Assembly (NCBI RefSeq): GCF_000420505.1
Contig: NZ_ATVB01000014.1
Coordinates: 1-38,428 of the forward strand
Length of the DNA stretch: 38,428 nucleotides
Direction of reading: 5' to 3'
From: Alloscardovia omnicolens DSM 21503
GTDB lineage: Bacteria > Actinomycetota > Actinomycetes > Actinomycetales > Bifidobacteriaceae
Notes under the pieces: model-generated
What the model saw: the letters and a program-made list of their open reading frames with translations, nothing else
Told to the model about the DNA's origin: nothing
The model's database searches: none
Made by a program: the position numbers and the translations under genes
Shown here: one piece after another, positions 4,312 through 37,112 of the stretch
Position numbering within the stretch: the first letter of the stretch is position 1
Layout of the letters: each line of letters opens with the position of its first letter

Positions 4312-5736
4312 ATGCGAGATTTTAAGGTAGCTGTTGTGGGCGCTGGCCCAGCAGGCGTGTATGTGTCCGATATTTTGCTGCGTCAGTTGGCGGCTAAGCG
4401 CGATGAGCTCGGTTTGGGCGCTGACGCGACCGCGCAGATTGATTTGTTCGAAAAGCTTCCAGTTCCCTTTGGTTTGGTGCGCTACGGCGTGGCTCCTGAT
4501 CATCCGGCAATTAAGTACATTATTGGCGCGCTCGAAAAGACGCTGAACAATCCGCAGATTCGCTTGATGGCCGATGTTGAGTTCGGTCGTGATATTGAGC
4601 TCGACGATCTTCGCTCTCGCTACGATGCTGTTATTTTCGCAACCGGCGCGGTAGATGACCGCCCGCTGACCATTCAGGGCGCAGACGCGCGCGGCGTTTT
4701 CGGCGCAGCCCGTTTCGTTGAGTGGTACGACGGCTATCCAACCGCTTCGCCGGATTGGGACTTGTCTGCTTCTCACGTGGCGGTTCTCGGTGGCGGCAAT
4801 GTGGCGATGGATATTTCGCGCTTGCTCGTGCGCTATCCGGACGACCTGCTACACACCGACATTCCGCAGAACGTGTACGACGGTTTGGACGCGAACAAGG
4901 CTGAGGATGTGCACGTGTTCGTGCGCCGCGACGTAACGCACGCCAAGTTTTCCGTACAGGAACTGCGCGAGCTTGAGGCTCTGCCAGGCGTAGAAATCGT
5001 TACTTTCGATAGCGATTTCGCTCCAGGAACCTTGACCGAAGCGCATATGGCGGCAGCCAGCGAAGACAAGTTAACGCGTCAGATGGTCGATGAGCTGATT
5101 GCCGTGCGCGAGATGAGCCTGAAGATGATGACTGAACACGTTGATTTTGAAGGCAACCCAGCACGTCGCCGCTTCTACCTGCACTTCAACACCAACCCAG
5201 TAGAGGTGCTCACCAACGATGCCGGCTGCGTTGCGGGCGTGCGCGTGGAGAAAACGACAACCACTCCAGATGGCACGATGAACGGTAGCGGAGAATTCAC
5301 CGATGTAGCAGTGGAGGCGGTGTATCACGCTATTGGATACAAGCCTGCTCAGGTGAGTGGTATTCCATACGATGAGCGCGCTTACACTCTCGACAACGAG
5401 GGCGGCCGCATTAACGGTCTCGACTTCGTGTACGCCACGGGTTGGGCCAAGCGCGGACCTGTGGGACTGATTGGCTCCACAAAGTCAGATGCTCTCGAAA
5501 CCGTGGAAAATCTCCTGACCGACTGGTCAGCAAGCGAATCAAAGGGACGCGTAGCAGCTCAGCCACAATCAGATATTGCGGATCTGCTGGCCGAGCGCGG
5601 CGTGCAGCCTTTGGATTACGCGGCCTGGCAGCGTGTGGACGCGTACGAGCGCGCTCGCGGCGCCGAGGTTGAGCGCGAACATATTAAAGTAATCGACGAG
5701 AACGAGCTGCGTGCGCTGGCTCGCGGCGAAAAGTAG
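4312..5736 (+). CDS. fprA: NADPH-ferredoxin/adrenodoxin reductase (FprA type)
   Basis: This flavoenzyme moves electrons between NADPH and ferredoxin or flavodoxin. The 474 residues match the FprA/adrenodoxin reductase family in length. The FAD-binding Rossmann motif is VVGAGPAGVY at about 8-17, followed by the family segment KLPVPFGLVRYGVAPDHP. The NADP-binding motif is VLGGGNVAMDISR at about 158-170. The C-terminal FAD contact is GWAKRGPVGLIGSTKSDA. The ATG at 4312 is preceded by AAGGA about 12 bases upstream. The stop is 6 bp before htpX, suggesting a two-gene transcript. The ferredoxin partner is not in the window. Confidence 0.95.
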   Translation: MRDFKVAVVGAGPAGVYVSDILLRQLAAKRDELGLGADATAQIDLFEKLPVPFGLVRYGVAPDHPAIKYIIGALEKTLNNPQIRLMADVEFGRDIELDDLRSRYDAVIFATGAVDDRPLTIQGADARGVFGAARFVEWYDGYPTASPDWDLSASHVAVLGGGNVAMDISRLLVRYPDDLLHTDIPQNVYDGLDANKAEDVHVFVRRDVTHAKFSVQELRELEALPGVEIVTFDSDFAPGTLTEAHMAAASEDKLTRQMVDELIAVREMSLKMMTEHVDFEGNPARRRFYLHFNTNPVEVLTNDAGCVAGVRVEKTTTTPDGTMNGSGEFTDVAVEAVYHAIGYKPAQVSGIPYDERAYTLDNEGGRINGLDFVYATGWAKRGPVGLIGSTKSDALETVENLLTDWSASESKGRVAAQPQSDIADLLAERGVQPLDYAAWQRVDAYERARGAEVEREHIKVIDENELRALARGEK

Positions 5737-11577: not shown

Positions 11578-11648
11578 GCGAATGTAGTTCATCGGTAGAA
11601 CGAGAGCTTCCCAAGCTCTAGAGGCGGGTTCGACTCCCGTCATTCGCT
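11578..11648 (+). tRNA. tRNA-Gly (anticodon CCC)
   Basis: The acceptor stem pairs GCGAATG (11578-11584) with CATTCGC (11641-11647), with discriminator T. The anticodon arm AGAGC-TTCCCAA-GCTCT gives CCC, and the T-loop is GGTTCGACTCC. It is 71 nt with no encoded CCA. A possible -10 (tacact, 11534-11539) lies upstream. Confidence 0.96.
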
Positions 11649-11668
11649 CTGATGGATTGTGTTGGGCG

Positions 11669-12066
11669 GTGTTGCCCAATTCCTTCCCACGTTGTGAGAG
11701 TTAATGCTTTTTCTATGCGTAGTCCGAACCTAATTTGCCGTAACACTCAAACGCCGGCTGCAGATTGGGAGTTACAGGTGGCGTTGGGTGAATATTAAAG
11801 GACAATTCGGCAGTATCGCTCAAACGGTTCCCAAGGATTGAGCATTAAAGAAATTGTGAATGTTCACAAGTTCTTTCAAACGGCTGTATCTCTCAATTGG
11901 TTTCTAGCGATTGGGAAATACGGGTGTAAATGGGGGCTTGGAACAAGAATTTCGCCTGTATCTCCCAATCTATAATTGGGGATTGAGTGTTGCGGATCGA
12001 AATAGCCCCTTTGAGTAGTCGCTTTTGGATGTATCTCTCAAACCCTAAATAGGGATTGAGAGATAC
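11669..12066. repeat. Array I: 36-bp divergent palindromes at 73-bp spacing (CRISPR-like geometry)
   Basis: Five 36-bp units begin at 11740, 11813, 11886, 11958 and 12031, giving steps of 73, 73, 72 and 73. A weaker sixth starts at 11669. Each has a left arm like GTATCTCTCAA and a right arm like TTGAGAGATAC. The unit at 12031-12066 is nearly perfect (11-bp outer stem, one mismatch, then CCCTA/TAGGG). Units differ at roughly a third of positions, but arm changes are partly matched: pair 4-33 is T-A in most units and A-T at 11740, and pair 6-31 is T-A or G-C. The 36-37 bp between units is unique. The region fills the gap between tRNA-Gly and the DUF559 gene, whose stop is 32 bp from the last unit. 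No cas gene is present. Confidence 0.8.
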
Positions 12067-12098: not shown

Positions 12099-13148
12099 TT
12101 ATAGGACGGATTCAGATTCTAGAAGGGTCCTTAATGCGCTAGACTCTTCGCGGAAATTCTCTCGCTGTATCACTGCAACTGAAAGAAGATGGTGCATAAG
12201 TTCCCTGGGGGAGAGCAATTCTTTCCAAGTTACCCTGATGAAGGAGTAGCCTAACATCTCCAACAATTGTTGCCTCTTTATAGATTCTTGTCTTGCGTCT
12301 AAAAACTCGTCCTCGTTGCTGCCCATCTTTCCTTTTCCATCGAATTCGATGAGCAAGTTTAAACCTGGTATAGCGAAATCTGCATAGTAATCATTCCCCC
12401 GTGCATGAATTTTGTACTGGGTTACGTACTGATTTGGGAAAGTTGCACACACAAATGGTAGTAATGCTGCTTCGGCGATATTTTCGCATCCCGCATCCGC
12501 AGTGTTAATGATTAGCTCAGCTCGCTTGTAATTGAATAGTCTGGGATATTTTCTCCTAACATTCTTGAGCGATGTGAGCAATGTATCCTTTACTTTCTTC
12601 TCGGCAATGCGAGAATCTTTTTGATGGAACCGCGAGAATGACGTCACTTCATGTAGTATTTCCGAGACAGCTACGATTGCATCGATAGCTGGCCGCGATA
12701 GGGCTATTCTCAAAGACGTAAGCACAAGCGATTCCACAGGAAGACCGTTAATATTCTGGACATGTTTTTTGCTTAGCATGAGTGCGCTTGGCAAGAATTT
12801 TCTTGAAACCACAGTGTGCTTACAGATTTCAACTTCCTTTAAATCGACGATATGGCGATCGTTCCCTTTTACTGCACGGATCTCAGGTGTATTGTCCCAA
12901 GTTGGTATGCCGTGTATGAGCATCGCCGATTCATGGGTGAAACACTCAATACCAGTACGTGTTGCATAAACAGCATGAATCCTAGCGAGGTTCACTGCAT
13001 CGCGAATTTCCCAGGCCGGACTATCTTTGCTGAATCGCTCGGTATTCATTACTACGCCGCGCATTATTTTTGCGTAGTGCTTATTGTATTTCTTAGAATC
13101 ATTGCCTTTGAGTACGATTATTTCTGGCTGCTGTATCGAAGTCTTCAT
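12099..13148 (-). CDS. AbiEi-like / DUF559 (PD-(D/E)XK-type) protein
   Basis: A protein of about 349 residues. Its N-terminal half has AbiEi-type features (KIMRGVV, then ECFTHESAMLIHGIP). The C-terminal ~100 residues match DUF559, a Vsr-like nuclease fold: YYADFAIPGLNLLIEFDGK with Asp and Glu/Lys candidates for the active site, and LEMLGYSFIRVTWKELL. Such proteins are common in actinobacteria and are sometimes linked to type IV toxin-antitoxin systems; their function is not established. The frame is open to a GTG at 13220, but the ATG at 13148 fits the family better; neither has a good ribosome binding site. A 24-bp palindrome spans this ATG. A truncated antitoxin-like ORF lies upstream and array I lies directly downstream. 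Confidence 0.7.
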   Translation of the reverse strand: MKTSIQQPEIIVLKGNDSKKYNKHYAKIMRGVVMNTERFSKDSPAWEIRDAVNLARIHAVYATRTGIECFTHESAMLIHGIPTWDNTPEIRAVKGNDRHIVDLKEVEICKHTVVSRKFLPSALMLSKKHVQNINGLPVESLVLTSLRIALSRPAIDAIVAVSEILHEVTSFSRFHQKDSRIAEKKVKDTLLTSLKNVRRKYPRLFNYKRAELIINTADAGCENIAEAALLPFVCATFPNQYVTQYKIHARGNDYYADFAIPGLNLLIEFDGKGKMGSNEDEFLDARQESIKRQQLLEMLGYSFIRVTWKELLSPRELMHHLLSVAVIQRENFREESSALRTLLESESVL

Positions 13149-13157
13149 ACTTCGATA
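13134..13157. promoter_or_regulatory. 24-bp palindrome at the start codon of the DUF559 gene, candidate operator
   Basis: TATCGAAGT (13134-13142) and ACTTCGATA (13149-13157) are perfect 9-bp arms around a 6-bp spacer that contains the start codon. The position suggests autoregulation, as seen for AbiEi-type antitoxins, or an mRNA hairpin hiding the start. Confidence 0.55.
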
Positions 13158-13249
13158 GTGCCTGCAATAACCACAGAAAACCAAACTTAAACGAACATGT
13201 GAACCGATGTGGAAACGCACCTACGATTTGCTTTTAATATAGAACAAAC

Positions 13250-13435
13250 CTAGTCAGAGTTCGTTTCAGGGAGTTGAGAACTCGCGTTTAACTGATCTTC
13301 ATCAAATTCATATGGTCGCCCGCGACGAGGTTCAGTAACCTCGCCAGTCCATGTACCGTTTTCGTACTTAGCGATCATGTCTTCAAGCTGTTCTTCGGTT
13401 AAGCCAAATTCTGAAGTAATATTTAATTCGTTCAT
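13250..13435 (-). CDS. Small acidic antitoxin-like ORF, probably C-terminally truncated
   Basis: A 61-residue ORF from ATG 13435: FGLTEEQLEDMIAKYENGTW, then a GRP motif and an acidic stretch. This resembles the N-terminal part of ribbon-helix-helix antitoxin-like proteins, in which GRP is followed by a beta strand such as xSFRLPES. Here the matching place reads ASSQLPETNSD and then stops, so the DNA-binding fold seems lost. The open frame extends to 13645, but that part looks non-coding. No Shine-Dalgarno is visible. The assignment is by resemblance only. Confidence 0.4.
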   Translation of the reverse strand: MNELNITSEFGLTEEQLEDMIAKYENGTWTGEVTEPRRGRPYEFDEDQLNASSQLPETNSD

Positions 13436-13792
13436 GATATTTTGTTGAAGTTTTGTATGTCTGACGCTCATAATTCTATCGTCACGAGTGTGCGAACTCA
13501 CAACAATACCTTGCGCCAACCCGTGCGTTCCGCTCAGCGTGTGCATGCTGGGACTAAGCTCTCGCCTAACCGCAGGTTTCCTCCTTACGAAAACATGTTC
13601 TTCTGTATAGGCGTTTCGTTGCTGGGGAAGAGCGGTACAGAACATTCATTCGATACGAAGTGAGCGCAAACTTTATCGCGCGCTTTCGCTGAGCGAGCTG
13701 TTTTATCTGAACAATCAAACCCCAAAAAGCTCGACAAACCCCGCGACACGCGTCGAACTAAGCCATTTTGCAACCCAAAATCACAACTCTTT

Positions 13793-28305: not shown

Positions 28306-28613
28306 GCTTTAACTTTCATCAGTAACGACATTGGTGAACGTTAAAGCTTTCTGACCGGTTAAATCAGTGGTGGTAAAGGCTTTACCAGGTAGCGCTAACG
28401 CACAGCTATGAAAAAGCTACAGCAGCAACCCTGTACTCGTATGCGCTCATATGCGAGCAAAATCAAGCTTTCCAAGCACAAAACGAGCTGACCGGATGCT
28501 GTATCGTTCATAGATAACCATCATCTATGAGAGTTAAAGCTTTCTGAAGCCAAAAATACGCCAGCGGAAGGCTTTGCCATTCATAGCTAAGCATTAGCTA
28601 CGAAAGCTAAAGC
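28306..28613. repeat. Array II: ~42-bp palindromes at ~73-bp spacing upstream of purA
   Basis: Five palindromes are centred at about 28326.5, 28398, 28446.5, 28519 and 28592, giving steps of 72, 48, 72.5 and 73. The first (28306-28347) has GCTTTAAC/GTTAAAGC outer arms and a second stem TTCATCAGT/ATTGGTGAA in exact register, with G-T pairs. The fourth (28498-28540) has TCATAGAT/ATCTATGA. The fifth (28571-28613) has GCTTT/AAAGC and TAGCTAA/TTAGCTA. Outer arms are shared while inner stems differ but still pair. The remainder of 28291-28723 holds no gene; the purA promoter was not clearly seen. Confidence 0.75.
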
Positions 28614-33301: not shown

Positions 33302-33676
33302 GTGTCTCTAACAACACTGCTGATGGTGAGCCTGTGCGGCGGTCTCGGAGCTGTCGCGCGCTTCGTTGTGGATACGCTCATTAAGCGCGTCTCCACCGGC
33401 TTCTTCCCATGGTCCACGTTATTCATTAACACGCTGGCCGGCTTCCTCTTCGCCGCCTGCGTTATCTATCTGCGCTCCTACGACCTGAACATGTACGTTC
33501 TGGCCACCAGCGGCTTCCTCGGCGGCTTCTCCACCTTCTCGACCGCGATGAACGAAATTATTTCGCTCGCCCGCGCTCGTCACTTTGTTGACTGCCTCGT
33601 CTACGCCGTCTGGTGCATCGGTCTGCCCGTATGCGCGGTTCTCGTAGGCGTTGCCCTGTTTGGCGCTCTCGCTTAG
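33302..33676 (+). CDS. crcB: Fluoride channel CrcB/Fluc, second copy
   Basis: A 124-residue channel subunit of normal length: GGLGAVARFVVDTL, WSTLFINTLAGFLFA (conserved Asn) and SGFLGGFSTFSTAMNE (Phe-box residues lining the pore). Four helices are predicted. Translation starts at GTG 33302 with GGAAGGA upstream, 12 bp after the kinase, so it belongs to the alarmone/two-component transcript. Gram-positive bacteria often make heterodimers from two crcB genes, and the copy at 30035 is the likely partner. The 3' end overlaps the convergent CLC gene by 4 bp. Confidence 0.94.
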   Translation: MSLTTLLMVSLCGGLGAVARFVVDTLIKRVSTGFFPWSTLFINTLAGFLFAACVIYLRSYDLNMYVLATSGFLGGFSTFSTAMNEIISLARARHFVDCLVYAVWCIGLPVCAVLVGVALFGALA

Positions 33677-35379
33677 TATGCGCTCGAGCACAGCAGGTTC
33701 AGCTCTTCTCTCGCTTGGCGCTGATGCTCGCCGGTATACATAACCACAATCCCATCACCCGGCTGAATAACCGTTGTTGCGCGCGGTACGAACTCTTTGC
33801 CGCCGCGCCGCACAGAAATAACCGCGGTATGTTCTGGCCAGTTAATCTTTCCAATCGCTTTGCCCATAGCCGCGCTATCGAGTTCGACCGGCAGAGAGAT
33901 TAAGGCTGATTGACTTGCTTTATCCACCGTTGGTTTGCTCGACTTCATAAAGCGATTGAGCAGTGCGTGATAAATCGGCTGCGTTCTGAGCGCATCGGAA
34001 ACAGCCAAAGAAATTAGGGTGACCGTTGCCACCGGAAGCATGTGCACGAGCGAACCGGTCATTTCAATCACCAACATCATCGACGTAATCGGAGCCTTCA
34101 CCGAAGCCGTGAGCGTTCCCGCCATCGCCAAAACTGCGAACGTGGCAATCAGTTGCGGACTAATCGGAGCAACCCGCGCGAAAATACTGCCGGTCACAGC
34201 GCCTACCGTCAAAATCGGCAAGAAAATGCCGCCCGGAGCGCCGCTGCCGAAGCTGGTCGCGGTAAAAAGCATTTTTATGAGCAGTAGTACGACGAGCATT
34301 CCCAGCGGGCTTGCTGCGTGTTCGGCGAAATCGATAAGCGTGGCGCCGCCGCCCAGAGCTAGCGGCAGGAAAATGCCCACCGGCAGAGCCAGTGCAATCG
34401 CAATAAACAGGCGCCAGTGCAGTGCGATATGACTATACGCGGTCTGCAAGCCGAGCAACAGCGCGTTCATCGCCGCGCCCGTTATGCCGCTAACCAGGCC
34501 GAGCGGGATGAGCCACACATAACTGTTGAGGTGGAGCTGTTCGACCGCGACGAAATGCAAAACTGGGTTAAAGCCCAGGAAAATCTTAGACATGAGGTCT
34601 GCGGTGAGTGCGGCCGTGGTGGCGGTGAGCAAAACAGTCGGGTTAAAACTGCGGTAGACTTCCTCGAGTGCGAACATCATGCCGGACAGTGGGGCGCTGA
34701 ACGCCGCGGACAAGCCTGCCGCCGCACCTGCCGCCGTAAAGTTATCGCGCTCAACATTGTTCTTGCTCATGCGCACGCCAATGCCGGCAGCTGTGGCCGC
34801 ACCGATTTGAATGGACGGGCCTTCACGGCCGAGGCTCATGCCGAAGAAGCCGCAGACGATGCCTGCCGTAAAGCGCACAAACAGAATTGACCACCAGCGC
34901 ATTTTGAGCCCCCACAACAGCACGCCCTCAACTTGAGGAATACCCGAGCCGGTAGCCATCGGCTCCCACGCGACGAGCTTGGCGATGGCTGCTGTGGCTG
35001 CTGCGGCGGTGAACAGGAATGCGAGGATTGTTAGGGGGTGGTTAGCCATGTATTGGTACGCGACTACCGCCCAATTATTGCCATACGCGATGATTGCTCG
35101 ATACGCCACCACCAACAGTCCCGCTCCCGCGCCGCACATAATCCCTCGCAACGCAATTGACCACTGACGGCGGTGCGACCCCGACAGCAGCTCCTGGATG
35201 TGCGTGCGGTAGCGGCGTGAAAGCGCGCGGGTGGTGGGGGTGGTGTTTTCGTTGTTCGTGGCGGTGGTGGCGGTTGAGTTCGTGAGGTCGAAGTCGTCGG
35301 CGATATCGTCCACAACGTCGGCGTTGAGATCAGGCTCGTGGTTTGGTTTGTGACTTGGCGCGGAATCGTGTGCGGTCAT
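33673..35379 (-). CDS. clcA: CLC-type chloride channel/antiporter with C-terminal RCK_C domain
   Basis: The protein has 568 residues. After a ~55-residue acidic, Thr/Asn-rich cytoplasmic start come the CLC signatures GSGIPQVEG (144-152, selectivity Ser), GREGPSIQIG (184-193, gating Glu186) and GSGAPGGIFLPI. The final ~75 residues (ISLPVELDSAAMGKAIGKIN to IVVMYTG) form a TrkA-C/RCK_C-like ligand domain. Fluoride-exporting CLCs have Met in place of the selectivity Ser, so this protein is probably chloride-selective despite its crcB neighbours. The ATG at 35379 has GGAGAAG seven bases upstream. Confidence 0.92.
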   Translation of the reverse strand: MTAHDSAPSHKPNHEPDLNADVVDDIADDFDLTNSTATTATNNENTTPTTRALSRRYRTHIQELLSGSHRRQWSIALRGIMCGAGAGLLVVAYRAIIAYGNNWAVVAYQYMANHPLTILAFLFTAAAATAAIAKLVAWEPMATGSGIPQVEGVLLWGLKMRWWSILFVRFTAGIVCGFFGMSLGREGPSIQIGAATAAGIGVRMSKNNVERDNFTAAGAAAGLSAAFSAPLSGMMFALEEVYRSFNPTVLLTATTAALTADLMSKIFLGFNPVLHFVAVEQLHLNSYVWLIPLGLVSGITGAAMNALLLGLQTAYSHIALHWRLFIAIALALPVGIFLPLALGGGATLIDFAEHAASPLGMLVVLLLIKMLFTATSFGSGAPGGIFLPILTVGAVTGSIFARVAPISPQLIATFAVLAMAGTLTASVKAPITSMMLVIEMTGSLVHMLPVATVTLISLAVSDALRTQPIYHALLNRFMKSSKPTVDKASQSALISLPVELDSAAMGKAIGKINWPEHTAVISVRRGGKEFVPRATTVIQPGDGIVVMYTGEHQRQAREELNLLCSSAY

Positions 35380-35444: not shown

Positions 35445-35634
35445 CGTGGGGGGGGTGGGGGGTATGGCGGGCTAACAATGTTCACGTCCGTTTGAAGGCT
35501 GGTTTTGTGGTGGATTCGAACGTGAACAGTGTGGCTTCGCTGAACACACAATGCTCACGTCCGCAAGTTGTTGAAAATTGGGCTTATCGTGTGCGTGAAC
35601 AGTGTGAGTATGGCGTACGACACTCTCTACGTCC
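35445..35634. repeat. Array III: palindromic repeats at ~73-bp spacing upstream of ilvA
   Basis: The central unit (35521-35559) pairs CGTGAACAGTGTG with CACAATGCTCACG at 11 of 13 positions. The next (35594-35631) repeats the left arm exactly and pairs it with CACTCTCTACG. The first (35445-35486) keeps the right arm CAATGTTCACG while its left arm is degraded to a G-run after CGTG. ACGTCC after the right arm recurs at 35484, 35557 and 35629 (steps 73 and 72), and GTATGGCG at 35462 and 35608 (146 apart). Confidence 0.72.
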
Positions 35635-35648
35635 TCTCGGATGTTCCT

Positions 35649-35680
35649 GAATCGTGAATGGCTAGAGCGATTCACGATTC
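35649..35680. repeat. 32-bp palindrome before ilvA
   Basis: GAATCGTGAA (35649-35658) and TTCACGATTC (35671-35680) are perfect 10-bp arms with a 12-bp spacer. It lies 14 bp after array III and shares the CGTGAA/TTCACG core. It may be an ilvA operator or another array unit out of phase. Confidence 0.7.
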
Positions 35681-35789
35681 ACGCACCAACACCACCCACC
35701 CCACCACCCGCGCGCCGCACGCCCTCGCCTGTACAACCGTGCGGTTTAGACTTGGAGCAAGATAGATGCGAATCAGTGAGGAGACATCC

Positions 35790-37112
35790 ATGACCACCAC
35801 CCACGCGACCCACGAAAATCACCCAGCAGAAACCTACGCCGACTACCTCTCCCGCGACCACGCCGCTGACCTCAAACTCGCAGCCGAGCGCTTGGCCTCG
35901 GTCGCACGCCATACCCACCTCGAAGAGTCCCAGATTCTCTCCGAGATGACCGGCGCTCGCGTGCTGCTCAAGCCAGAGAACTTGCAGAAGACCGGCTCGT
36001 TCAAGCTGCGTGGTGCGTATAACAAGATCGCGTCGCTGTCGCAGGACGAGCTCGACCGCGGCATCATCACGGCTTCCGCAGGCAATCACGCGCAGGGCGT
36101 AGCGTATGCGGCTCGCGAACGTGGCGCGCACGCGACGATTGTTATGCCGCGCATCACGCCGCCAATCAAGGTGGATGCTACCCGCGCGCTGGGTGCGACG
36201 GTGGCGCTCGAGGGTGATGTTTTCGACGAGTCAAGCGCGTACGCTGCCAATGCTGCGCGCACGCAGGGTCTCACTTTTGTGCATCCGTTTAACGATTACG
36301 AGGTTCTCACCGGTCAGGGCACTATTGCGATGGAGATTTTGGAGGACTGCCCTGAGGTTACCGATATCCTCGTTCCGCTCGGTGGCGGCGGTTTGGGCGC
36401 GGGTGTTGCGATGGCTGTAAAGACTTTCGCGCCGCACGTGCGCGTTATTGGCGTTACGCCGGAGGGCTCGGTTGCCTTCGGTCAGTCGTTCGCGGCCGGC
36501 GAGCACCGCGTGCACGCTGCCGACGCTGTGCACACGGCTGCCGAGGGCGTTGCCGTGCGCGAGCCGGGTTCGCTCACTTTCGCTCTGCTCGAGAAGTACC
36601 TCGACGGCTTCGTTACTGTGTCCGAGCGCGATATTTCCGAGATGATTTTGCTGATGCTCGAAAAACATAAGCTCGTCGTCGAGGCTGCCGGAGCCGTGTC
36701 TTTGGCTGCTTTGAACGTTCTCGATAAAGTTCAGGCTCTTCCTGATTTAGAGGCGCCGCTCGAGGCTCCTGCTTTGAGTGAGCGCGTAATCGTTCCGATT
36801 TTGTCCGGCGGCAATATCGATACCGTTACGATGGGCGCGGTTATTCAGCGCGGTATGATTTCGCGCGGCCGCATTATGCAGTTCGGCGTTGAACTTCCAG
36901 ATACGCCTGGTCAGCTCGCTTTGATCGCTCAGATTCTTGCTGATTTGCGCGCGAACGTGATCGAGCTGAACCACGATCAGTTCAAGGCTCAATCACATTA
37001 CACAAACGCGGTACTGCTGGAAGTGACGGTTGAAACAAACGGTCCTGATCATATCCAACAGATTATGGACGCTCTACATGTTAAGGGATTCCGCGTCAAT
37101 CGCGTCTACTAA
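35790..37112 (+). CDS. ilvA: Threonine ammonia-lyase (threonine dehydratase)
   Basis: A PLP enzyme that converts threonine to 2-oxobutanoate for isoleucine synthesis. From ATG 35790 (GAGGAG seven bases upstream) it has 440 residues; an ATG at 35766 in the same frame lacks a comparable site. PLP Lys72 lies in QKTGSFKLRGAYN, SAGNHAQG is the substrate Asn loop, and VPLGGGGLGAG binds the phosphate. One ACT domain covers about 365-440 (GVELPDTPGQLALIAQIL), the single-ACT layout of catabolic or feedback-variant forms. The last 39 bp overlap the convergent sirtuin gene. Confidence 0.95.
   Translation: MTTTHATHENHPAETYADYLSRDHAADLKLAAERLASVARHTHLEESQILSEMTGARVLLKPENLQKTGSFKLRGAYNKIASLSQDELDRGIITASAGNHAQGVAYAARERGAHATIVMPRITPPIKVDATRALGATVALEGDVFDESSAYAANAARTQGLTFVHPFNDYEVLTGQGTIAMEILEDCPEVTDILVPLGGGGLGAGVAMAVKTFAPHVRVIGVTPEGSVAFGQSFAAGEHRVHAADAVHTAAEGVAVREPGSLTFALLEKYLDGFVTVSERDISEMILLMLEKHKLVVEAAGAVSLAALNVLDKVQALPDLEAPLEAPALSERVIVPILSGGNIDTVTMGAVIQRGMISRGRIMQFGVELPDTPGQLALIAQILADLRANVIELNHDQFKAQSHYTNAVLLEVTVETNGPDHIQQIMDALHVKGFRVNRVY

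Follow-up and report, generated by a model that had tools for sequence, protein, structure and literature searches.

Phased palindromic arrays adjoin AbiEi-like/DUF559 nuclease-like genes in Alloscardovia and suggest a self-spreading genetic element

Introduction

The closest described parallel to the locus analysed here is the association of REP sequences, and of the BIMEs that they form, with RAYT genes. In the part of PMC2817692 drawn on here, RAYTs are presented as tyrosine transposases related to those of IS200/IS605 that always lie between two inverted REPs, and the REPs of the case described there carry a GT(A/G)G head. Three further systems bear on the protein encoded at the locus. I-Bth0305I, according to an excerpt of PMC3943268, joins a nuclease domain to DNA-binding parts and forms a dimer on a nearly 60-bp target. 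AbiEi, from a type IV toxin-antitoxin system, binds inverted repeats that extend to 23 bp and are set 3 bp apart (PMC3985639, in the section used here). For Legionella, a passage of PMC12308824 describes recombination hot spots formed by repeated segments that carry a DUF559 protein together with a transposase. A search of the open-access literature found no report that links DUF559 proteins to palindromic arrays.

The present analysis concerns a 38,428-nt stretch of the Alloscardovia omnicolens genome, termed the window, in which a series of palindromes lies next to such a gene. The window's own genome is designated G000, that of the sister species G003, and the other genomes of the genus G001, G002 and G004.

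Results

The array in the window

Five 36-bp units, separated by steps of 73, 73, 72 and 73 bp, were confirmed at the positions given by the original prediction (Table 1). They are imperfect palindromes, and comparison of their sequences upheld the strong divergence that had been claimed for them. In this register, which was picked by eye, the five 36-mers form 52 of 70 outer Watson-Crick pairs; when the same geometry was placed elsewhere in the window (36,600 placements), no more than 32 pairs were formed. The self-match of the window at lags of 55-99 peaks at lag 73, above all 500 dinucleotide shuffles, albeit narrowly (0.414 versus a shuffle maximum of 0.405). A step of 72-73 bp corresponds to about seven helical turns (7 x 10.4-10.5 bp, or near 73), which makes helical phasing plausible.

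A weak sixth unit, located at about 11667-11669, was supported by R1, a model of 13 units (the five of the window and eight from the arrays L009 and L010 described below). In the window search R1 matched positions 11665-11709 (26.1 bits, E 5.4e-5), and the PWM score of the unit, 21.3, exceeds the highest value, 19.5, among 20 simple window shuffles. The partly compensatory arm changes proposed earlier gained no support from the 13 units: on five measures, 467-499 of 500 shuffles did equally well or better.

Table 1. Features of the array and its immediate surroundings (positions in the window)
Feature	Position	Strand	Basis
tRNA-Gly (CCC), directly before the array	11578..11649	+	
Palindromic unit 0, weak and degenerate	11669..11704	.	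R1 match, PWM
Palindromic unit 1, 36 bp	11740..11775	.	R1 training member
Units 2-4 with the 36-37-bp spacers between units 1 and 5	11776..12030	.	three spacers align in order with two other arrays
Palindromic unit 2, 36 bp	11813..11848	.	R1 training member
Palindromic unit 3, 36 bp	11886..11921	.	R1 training member; BLAST match elsewhere in the genome
Palindromic unit 4, 36 bp	11958..11993	.	R1 training member; BLAST match elsewhere in the genome
Palindromic unit 5, 36 bp, most perfect, arms 94% complementary	12031..12066	.	R1 training member
Gene for an AbiEi-like/DUF559 (Vsr-like) nuclease-like protein	12099..13220	-	Pfam, alignment, structure model

Related arrays in the same genome

A BLAST search of the region against its own genome returned two more arrays of the window palindrome type, L009 and L010, each with four units at an exact 73-bp step. 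Judged by translation similarity, L009 is flanked by rpsT and an ilvE-like gene, and L010 precedes glnA. Across these two arrays and that of the window, the spacers can be aligned in order. In total, R1 gave at least 34 matches in G000 at E<=10, with 150 of 479 candidates scored, in seven places, two of which appeared only at E >1. Other palindromes among these matches were a single one in L045 and two, 73 bp apart, in L047. L046 holds four units with a CTCAC...GTGAG core at an exact 73-bp step, and on inspection of the L011 and L049 matches no array was seen. A long hairpin of similar sequence, CCGTGG...CCACGG, closes both solo arrays (L009:4377-4422 and L010 at about 4640-4680) and is absent from the window array. 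The sequence at L046:5320-5410 carries a motif that we assume to be a TPP riboswitch ahead of thiamine genes.

A second palindrome type, that of L055 and L054, is represented by the model R2, built from 13 units of three G003 arrays. R2-like units occur in about 20 places, at least, in G000 at E<=1, some of them in a 73-bp register; their scores are lower in this genome (47 bits at the best site and 34 at the next), from which the R2-type gene is absent. Within the window, a second, degenerate array was recognised by eye at 35473-35690, between the open reading frames 33673-35379 (-) and 35766-37112 (+), and its last unit (35641-35688) is an R2-type palindrome of 47 bits. Weak single palindromes were also seen at 2019-2064 (R2-like, E 0.0016) and 28497-28542 (R1-like, E 0.012). 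Elsewhere in G000, a further palindrome type was recognised by eye in L192:474-811, where four of its units and an R2-like one share a single 73-bp register; no gene of its own was found for this type.

The adjacent gene and its product

The window array ends 33 bp beyond the stop codon of the neighbouring gene. The DUF559 assignment of this gene proved sound: the window copy matches PF18741 (E 0.00035) and PF04480 (E 0.014), both short of the Pfam cut-offs, and PF04480 passes its cut-off in the four other copies from the genus. The first 28 residues of the protein are predicted with low confidence, and the true start of the gene may be the ATG at 13148. A small neighbouring open reading frame (13250-13645) had no Pfam match at E<=0.001.

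The structure model of the window protein has a mean pLDDT of 89.5. Its C-terminal domain was aligned with NGO0050 (3hrl; Z 12.0, rmsd 1.7, 91 aligned), I-Bth0305I (3r3p; Z 11.7, rmsd 2.7, 97 aligned) and Vsr (1cw0; Z 10.3, rmsd 2.3, 104 aligned), and residues 30-242 with AbiEi (6y8q; Z 7.0, rmsd 5.5, 162 aligned). The middle part weakly matches nucleotidyltransferase-like toxins at Z 7-8 (about 7.5 for MenT3/TglT), and fold matches with Z <8 may reflect a common arrangement alone. Foldseek returned no PDB match to the model at E<=0.001, and PADLOC reported AbiEi in one of four proteins (E 0.0038). Among 27 aligned homologues, a subset picked from the 49 loci considered below, the invariant residues were E250, Q268, D281, E292, D294, G295, K298, R316 and R329. 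They presumably include the active-site acids; E250, D281, E292, D294 and K298 accompany the predicted Vsr-like fold. The model points to a Vsr/homing-endonuclease-like C-terminal domain and, weakly, to an AbiEi-like N-terminal part. By tblastn, no match was found in phage and plasmid sequences, and a scan of viral contigs gave one weak match (L056).

Pairing of gene and array in the genus

Five copies of the gene were detected in the five genomes of the genus, two in G000 (that of the window included) and three in G003; none was found in G001, G002 or G004. At the family level, the gene was present in 2 of 189 genomes. A search for DUF559 genes that co-occur with such arrays had been proposed as a check; all five genus copies found adjoin a palindromic array with a 72-73-bp step. 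These arrays, of four sequence types, are those of the window, of L046, of L048 (the G003 site corresponding to L046) and of the two G003 genes at L055, which have palindromes distinct from the window type and from one another. By eye, gene and array are about 20 to 230 bp apart in all five cases. In L046 and L048 the array is at the 5' side of the gene; the window and the two L055 cases have it past the 3' end. The array is always on one side only, and the two flanks share no 11-mers in any of the five.

Dispersal and differences between species

In G003, R2 detected at least 25 loci, one of them beside its gene, and a renewed search of the fetched G003 stretches yielded 112 units, each site being counted once. 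Conservation of the 73-bp step in a related genome had been named as a check, and the step is indeed kept in the sister species: 83 of 87 steps were 72 or 73 bp (72 bp, 62 times; 73 bp, 21 times; 71 bp, twice; 69 and 75 bp, once each), and 74 of 77 were so when the three R2 training loci were left out. The arms of the R2 units often carry like letters at pairs 7-42, 12-37, 17-32 and 20-29 (76, 60, 57 and 52 of the 112 units, respectively), that is, there are two arm sub-types. The sign of pair 7-42 is uniform in 19 arrays and mixed in one (L182), five of the 25 arrays having fewer than two scorable units; one unit orientation is kept per array in 19 of the 20 scorable arrays.

The genome counts obtained with R1 and R2 are lower bounds, with at most 150 first-look candidates scored per genome. 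At that depth, the gene-less genomes G001, G002 and G004 gave no R1 match at E<=1 and, respectively, 0, 2 (best E 0.02) and 0 R2 matches at E<=0.1. The rpsT-ilvE and glnA sites carry window-type arrays in G000 and R2-type arrays in G003. The intergenic site upstream of glnA measures approximately 200-230 bp in the three gene-less species, where it is empty, versus about 540 bp in G000 and 675 bp in G003; for G002 the sequence of the short stretch was inspected as well. The presence of the two array types at the same two loci in sister species could alternatively reflect insertion hot spots.

When 22 G003 array sites were queried, nine had both flanks on one G000 contig. At six of these nine, G000 lacks a comparable array (L207-L210, L213 and L214); of the other three, L206 holds a single palindrome of a different kind, L211 an R2-like unit in degenerate form, and L212 a weak signal at 73 bp. 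L178/L210 is the clearest empty site. The other alignments of G003 and G000 sites are mostly poor, and no clean case of target-site duplication was seen in them. Solo arrays outnumber those that are linked to a gene.

Distant homologues and their flanking repeats

A profile of the five genus proteins matched at E<=1e-10 in 27 of 297 order-level genomes. Loci were scored as positive in a two-flank test when the two 600-bp flanks of the gene had at least ten 11-mers in common. This was the case at 22 of the 49 gene loci versus 1 of 19 control regions (at any position). The Fisher p of 0.0016 (22/27 versus 1/18) is exploratory, the statistic having been chosen after the loci had been viewed, and orthologous loci (for example L058-L060, L084-L086 and L087/L089/L090) are not independent. 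Control positions with ten or more common 11-mers numbered 3 of 285, all in L106. The 27 gene loci below the threshold include the five genus loci, which scored zero. An earlier statistic (11-mers present at least three times, score of at least 50) separated poorly, with 17 of 49 loci versus 3 of 19 controls.

The distant relatives examined lack the 72-73-bp step and carry repeats of 19, 31, 95 bp and other lengths. Direct flanking copies of 85-135 bp with 91-99% identity were found in L058, L061, L093 and L097, and an inverted flanking pair of 73 bp (96% identity) in L066. Six-copy repeats occur in L062 (90 bp) and L087 (142 bp), with 66-94% identity. Beside the nuclease gene, the steps of the latter repeats are irregular (181/253 and 190/255/260 bp). 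In genus g84, a 19-bp repeat is present 11 times in G436, 10 times in G453 and not at all in G366, and all 21 matches lie within about 2.3 kb of the gene. At L084, L085 and L086 of this genus, the 19-bp repeats were observed as direct and inverted copies on both sides of the gene. A G366 control region far from its genes (L109) holds a repeat like that of L084, and the repeats are therefore not strictly private to the gene.

The association of gene and repeats had been described as positional only. With all five genus genes next to an array and 22 of 49 two-flank loci versus 1 of 19 controls, it is systematic: the gene-repeat pairing in the genus is real, with signs of a wider pattern.

Discussion

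Comparison with described systems

As in the REP/BIME and RAYT systems, dispersed or clustered imperfect extragenic palindromes are tied here to a nuclease gene that sits among its own repeats, the term cognate being used for this gene on the grounds of adjacency. Several properties set the two apart. The enzyme is DUF559/Vsr-like, whereas RAYTs are IS200/IS605-related (Transposase_17); the arrays show a strict 72-73-bp step and a single unit orientation; at the genus genes a one-sided array takes the place of the two inverted REPs; and the distant homologues inspected mostly have direct copies on both sides, L066 being inverted. The gene-repeat system works like the RAYT/REP kind and is not a member of it.

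With I-Bth0305I and Vsr, the window protein shares the modelled fold of the catalytic domain and the apparent joining of a nuclease domain to DNA-binding parts. In contrast to those enzymes, it is encoded by a free-standing gene, and the likely target, judged from the sequence, would be a multi-copy array and not a conserved gene. AbiEi, for which a long imperfect palindromic target is described in part of PMC3985639, aligns with residues 30-242; on the other hand, the low Z of this predicted similarity is tied with that of the nucleotidyltransferase toxins, and the AbiEi-like part appears here fused to a nuclease domain. The DUF559 and MTES_1575 REase families are those of the C-terminal domain. 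Precedents for a long palindromic target thus exist for both halves of the protein, given the repeats of up to 23 bp bound by AbiEi and the nearly 60-bp target of I-Bth0305I.

A proposed mechanism

We give an even chance to the reading in which the array consists of DNA recognition sites of the adjacent AbiEi-like/DUF559 protein, and copying at breaks spreads the arrays and, occasionally, the gene. The protein would recognise the long imperfect palindromes in duplex form through its AbiEi-like N-terminal part and, with its Vsr/homing-endonuclease-like C-terminal domain, would nick or cleave the DNA at these sites. Neighbouring proteins, bound 72-73 bp apart, would lie on the same side of the helix, where they could bridge. 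Repair of the break by copying from another array would then place arrays, and now and again the gene, at new intergenic sites. Such copying would account for the different genes with different repeat types and for the scattered solo arrays. By analogy, the nuclease probably spreads palindromes as RAYT transposases spread REPs. What is observed is the gene-repeat pairing in the genus, the dispersal of the arrays, their presence or absence between species and their fixed geometry; binding, cutting and nuclease-driven spread are what we infer. Of the options listed originally, a mobile palindrome family and a phased protein-binding site both fit.

A broader proposal, which we hold tentatively and at somewhat less than even probability, is a new class of self-spreading element. 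In it, a Vsr-like nuclease would be fused to an AbiEi-like DNA-binding part, and each gene lineage would have its own helically phased array as target and vehicle. Array sequences would be replaced over time at constant loci and with the 72-73-bp geometry intact; through copying driven by the resident nuclease, the rpsT-ilvE and glnA sites would thus come to differ in palindrome between sister species.

Several observations count against the mechanism. The genus arrays are one-sided, unlike those of RAYTs; more than half of the 49 loci (27) were not positive in the two-flank test while one control region was; the L109 repeat lies away from a gene, and the L192 type was found without one of its own. 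To these are added the lack of a clean target-site duplication, the hot-spot alternative and the absence of the step from the distant relatives examined.

Alternative explanations

One alternative gives the palindromes a regulatory or architectural role without any mobilisation: bound by this protein or another one, the phased sites might serve in autoregulation of the gene or in chromosome organisation. AbiEi is described as an autorepressor that acts on its promoter via long inverted repeats (PMC3985639, in the section used here), the phasing is strict, and the L046 and L048 arrays are at the 5' side of their gene. Nevertheless, the window array and two others of the five in the genus are found past the 3' end of the gene, sister species differ in whether corresponding sites carry an array, and many distant homologues have common repeats on both sides of the gene. 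We judge this regulatory or architectural role unlikely, albeit the strongest competitor to spread by copying. More doubtful is the view that an unrelated transposase moves the arrays as passive miniature elements, with DUF559 genes gathering in the same tolerant intergenic places. It would suit the excess of solo arrays and the several palindrome types, at least one of which was found without its own gene; it sits poorly with arrays of four repeat types at five of five genus genes, and with the g84 19-bp repeat, all 21 matches of which surround the gene.

A chain of RNA hairpins, acting as small RNAs or terminators, is improbable. Both strands of the array do fold better than shuffles (z -7.2 and -7.3), but palindromes fold in any case. 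If a single strand folded, G-T pairs would be expected to outnumber A-C mismatches on that strand, whereas the two are balanced (47:39, p 0.45; 138:145 in the 112 R2 units). Covariation, recommended earlier as a check, did not rise above shuffles in the 13 units of the window type or in the 112 of the R2 family; pairing in the latter was lower than expected from shuffles, 999 of 1000 of which reached at least its level. No Rfam match lies within the array at gathering thresholds. Moreover, arrays sit between convergent (window and L009), tandem (L010) and divergent (L046) genes, a statement that covers these four loci alone; assignments by longest open frame (9, 7, 4 and 2 of 22) include at least one wrongly read flank, rpsT beside L129. 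Duplex DNA recognition with two slightly different half-sites would fit the sequences better than RNA hairpins. The chance that the locus is a decayed CRISPR array, finally, is close to nil, and this candidate was rejected. Its 36-bp units and 36-37-bp spacers have the appropriate lengths; yet three window spacers have aligned counterparts, in the same order, in two other arrays and are therefore not acquired CRISPR spacers, the units differ strongly from one another, and related arrays of fixed geometry recur at many sites. A blastn search of 50,697 phage records gave no match, and a Pfam scan of ten window proteins gave none named Cas.

Implications

The gene-linked repeat arrays suggest an undescribed kind of self-spreading genetic element. 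The candidate DNA target beside each copy of the gene makes the role of the window protein directly testable. The strict 72-73-bp phasing across several palindrome sequences offers a handle on how nuclease assemblies might read spaced sites and, if the pairing reflects spread, a second, unrelated class of enzyme would be doing the work of the RAYT-REP systems.
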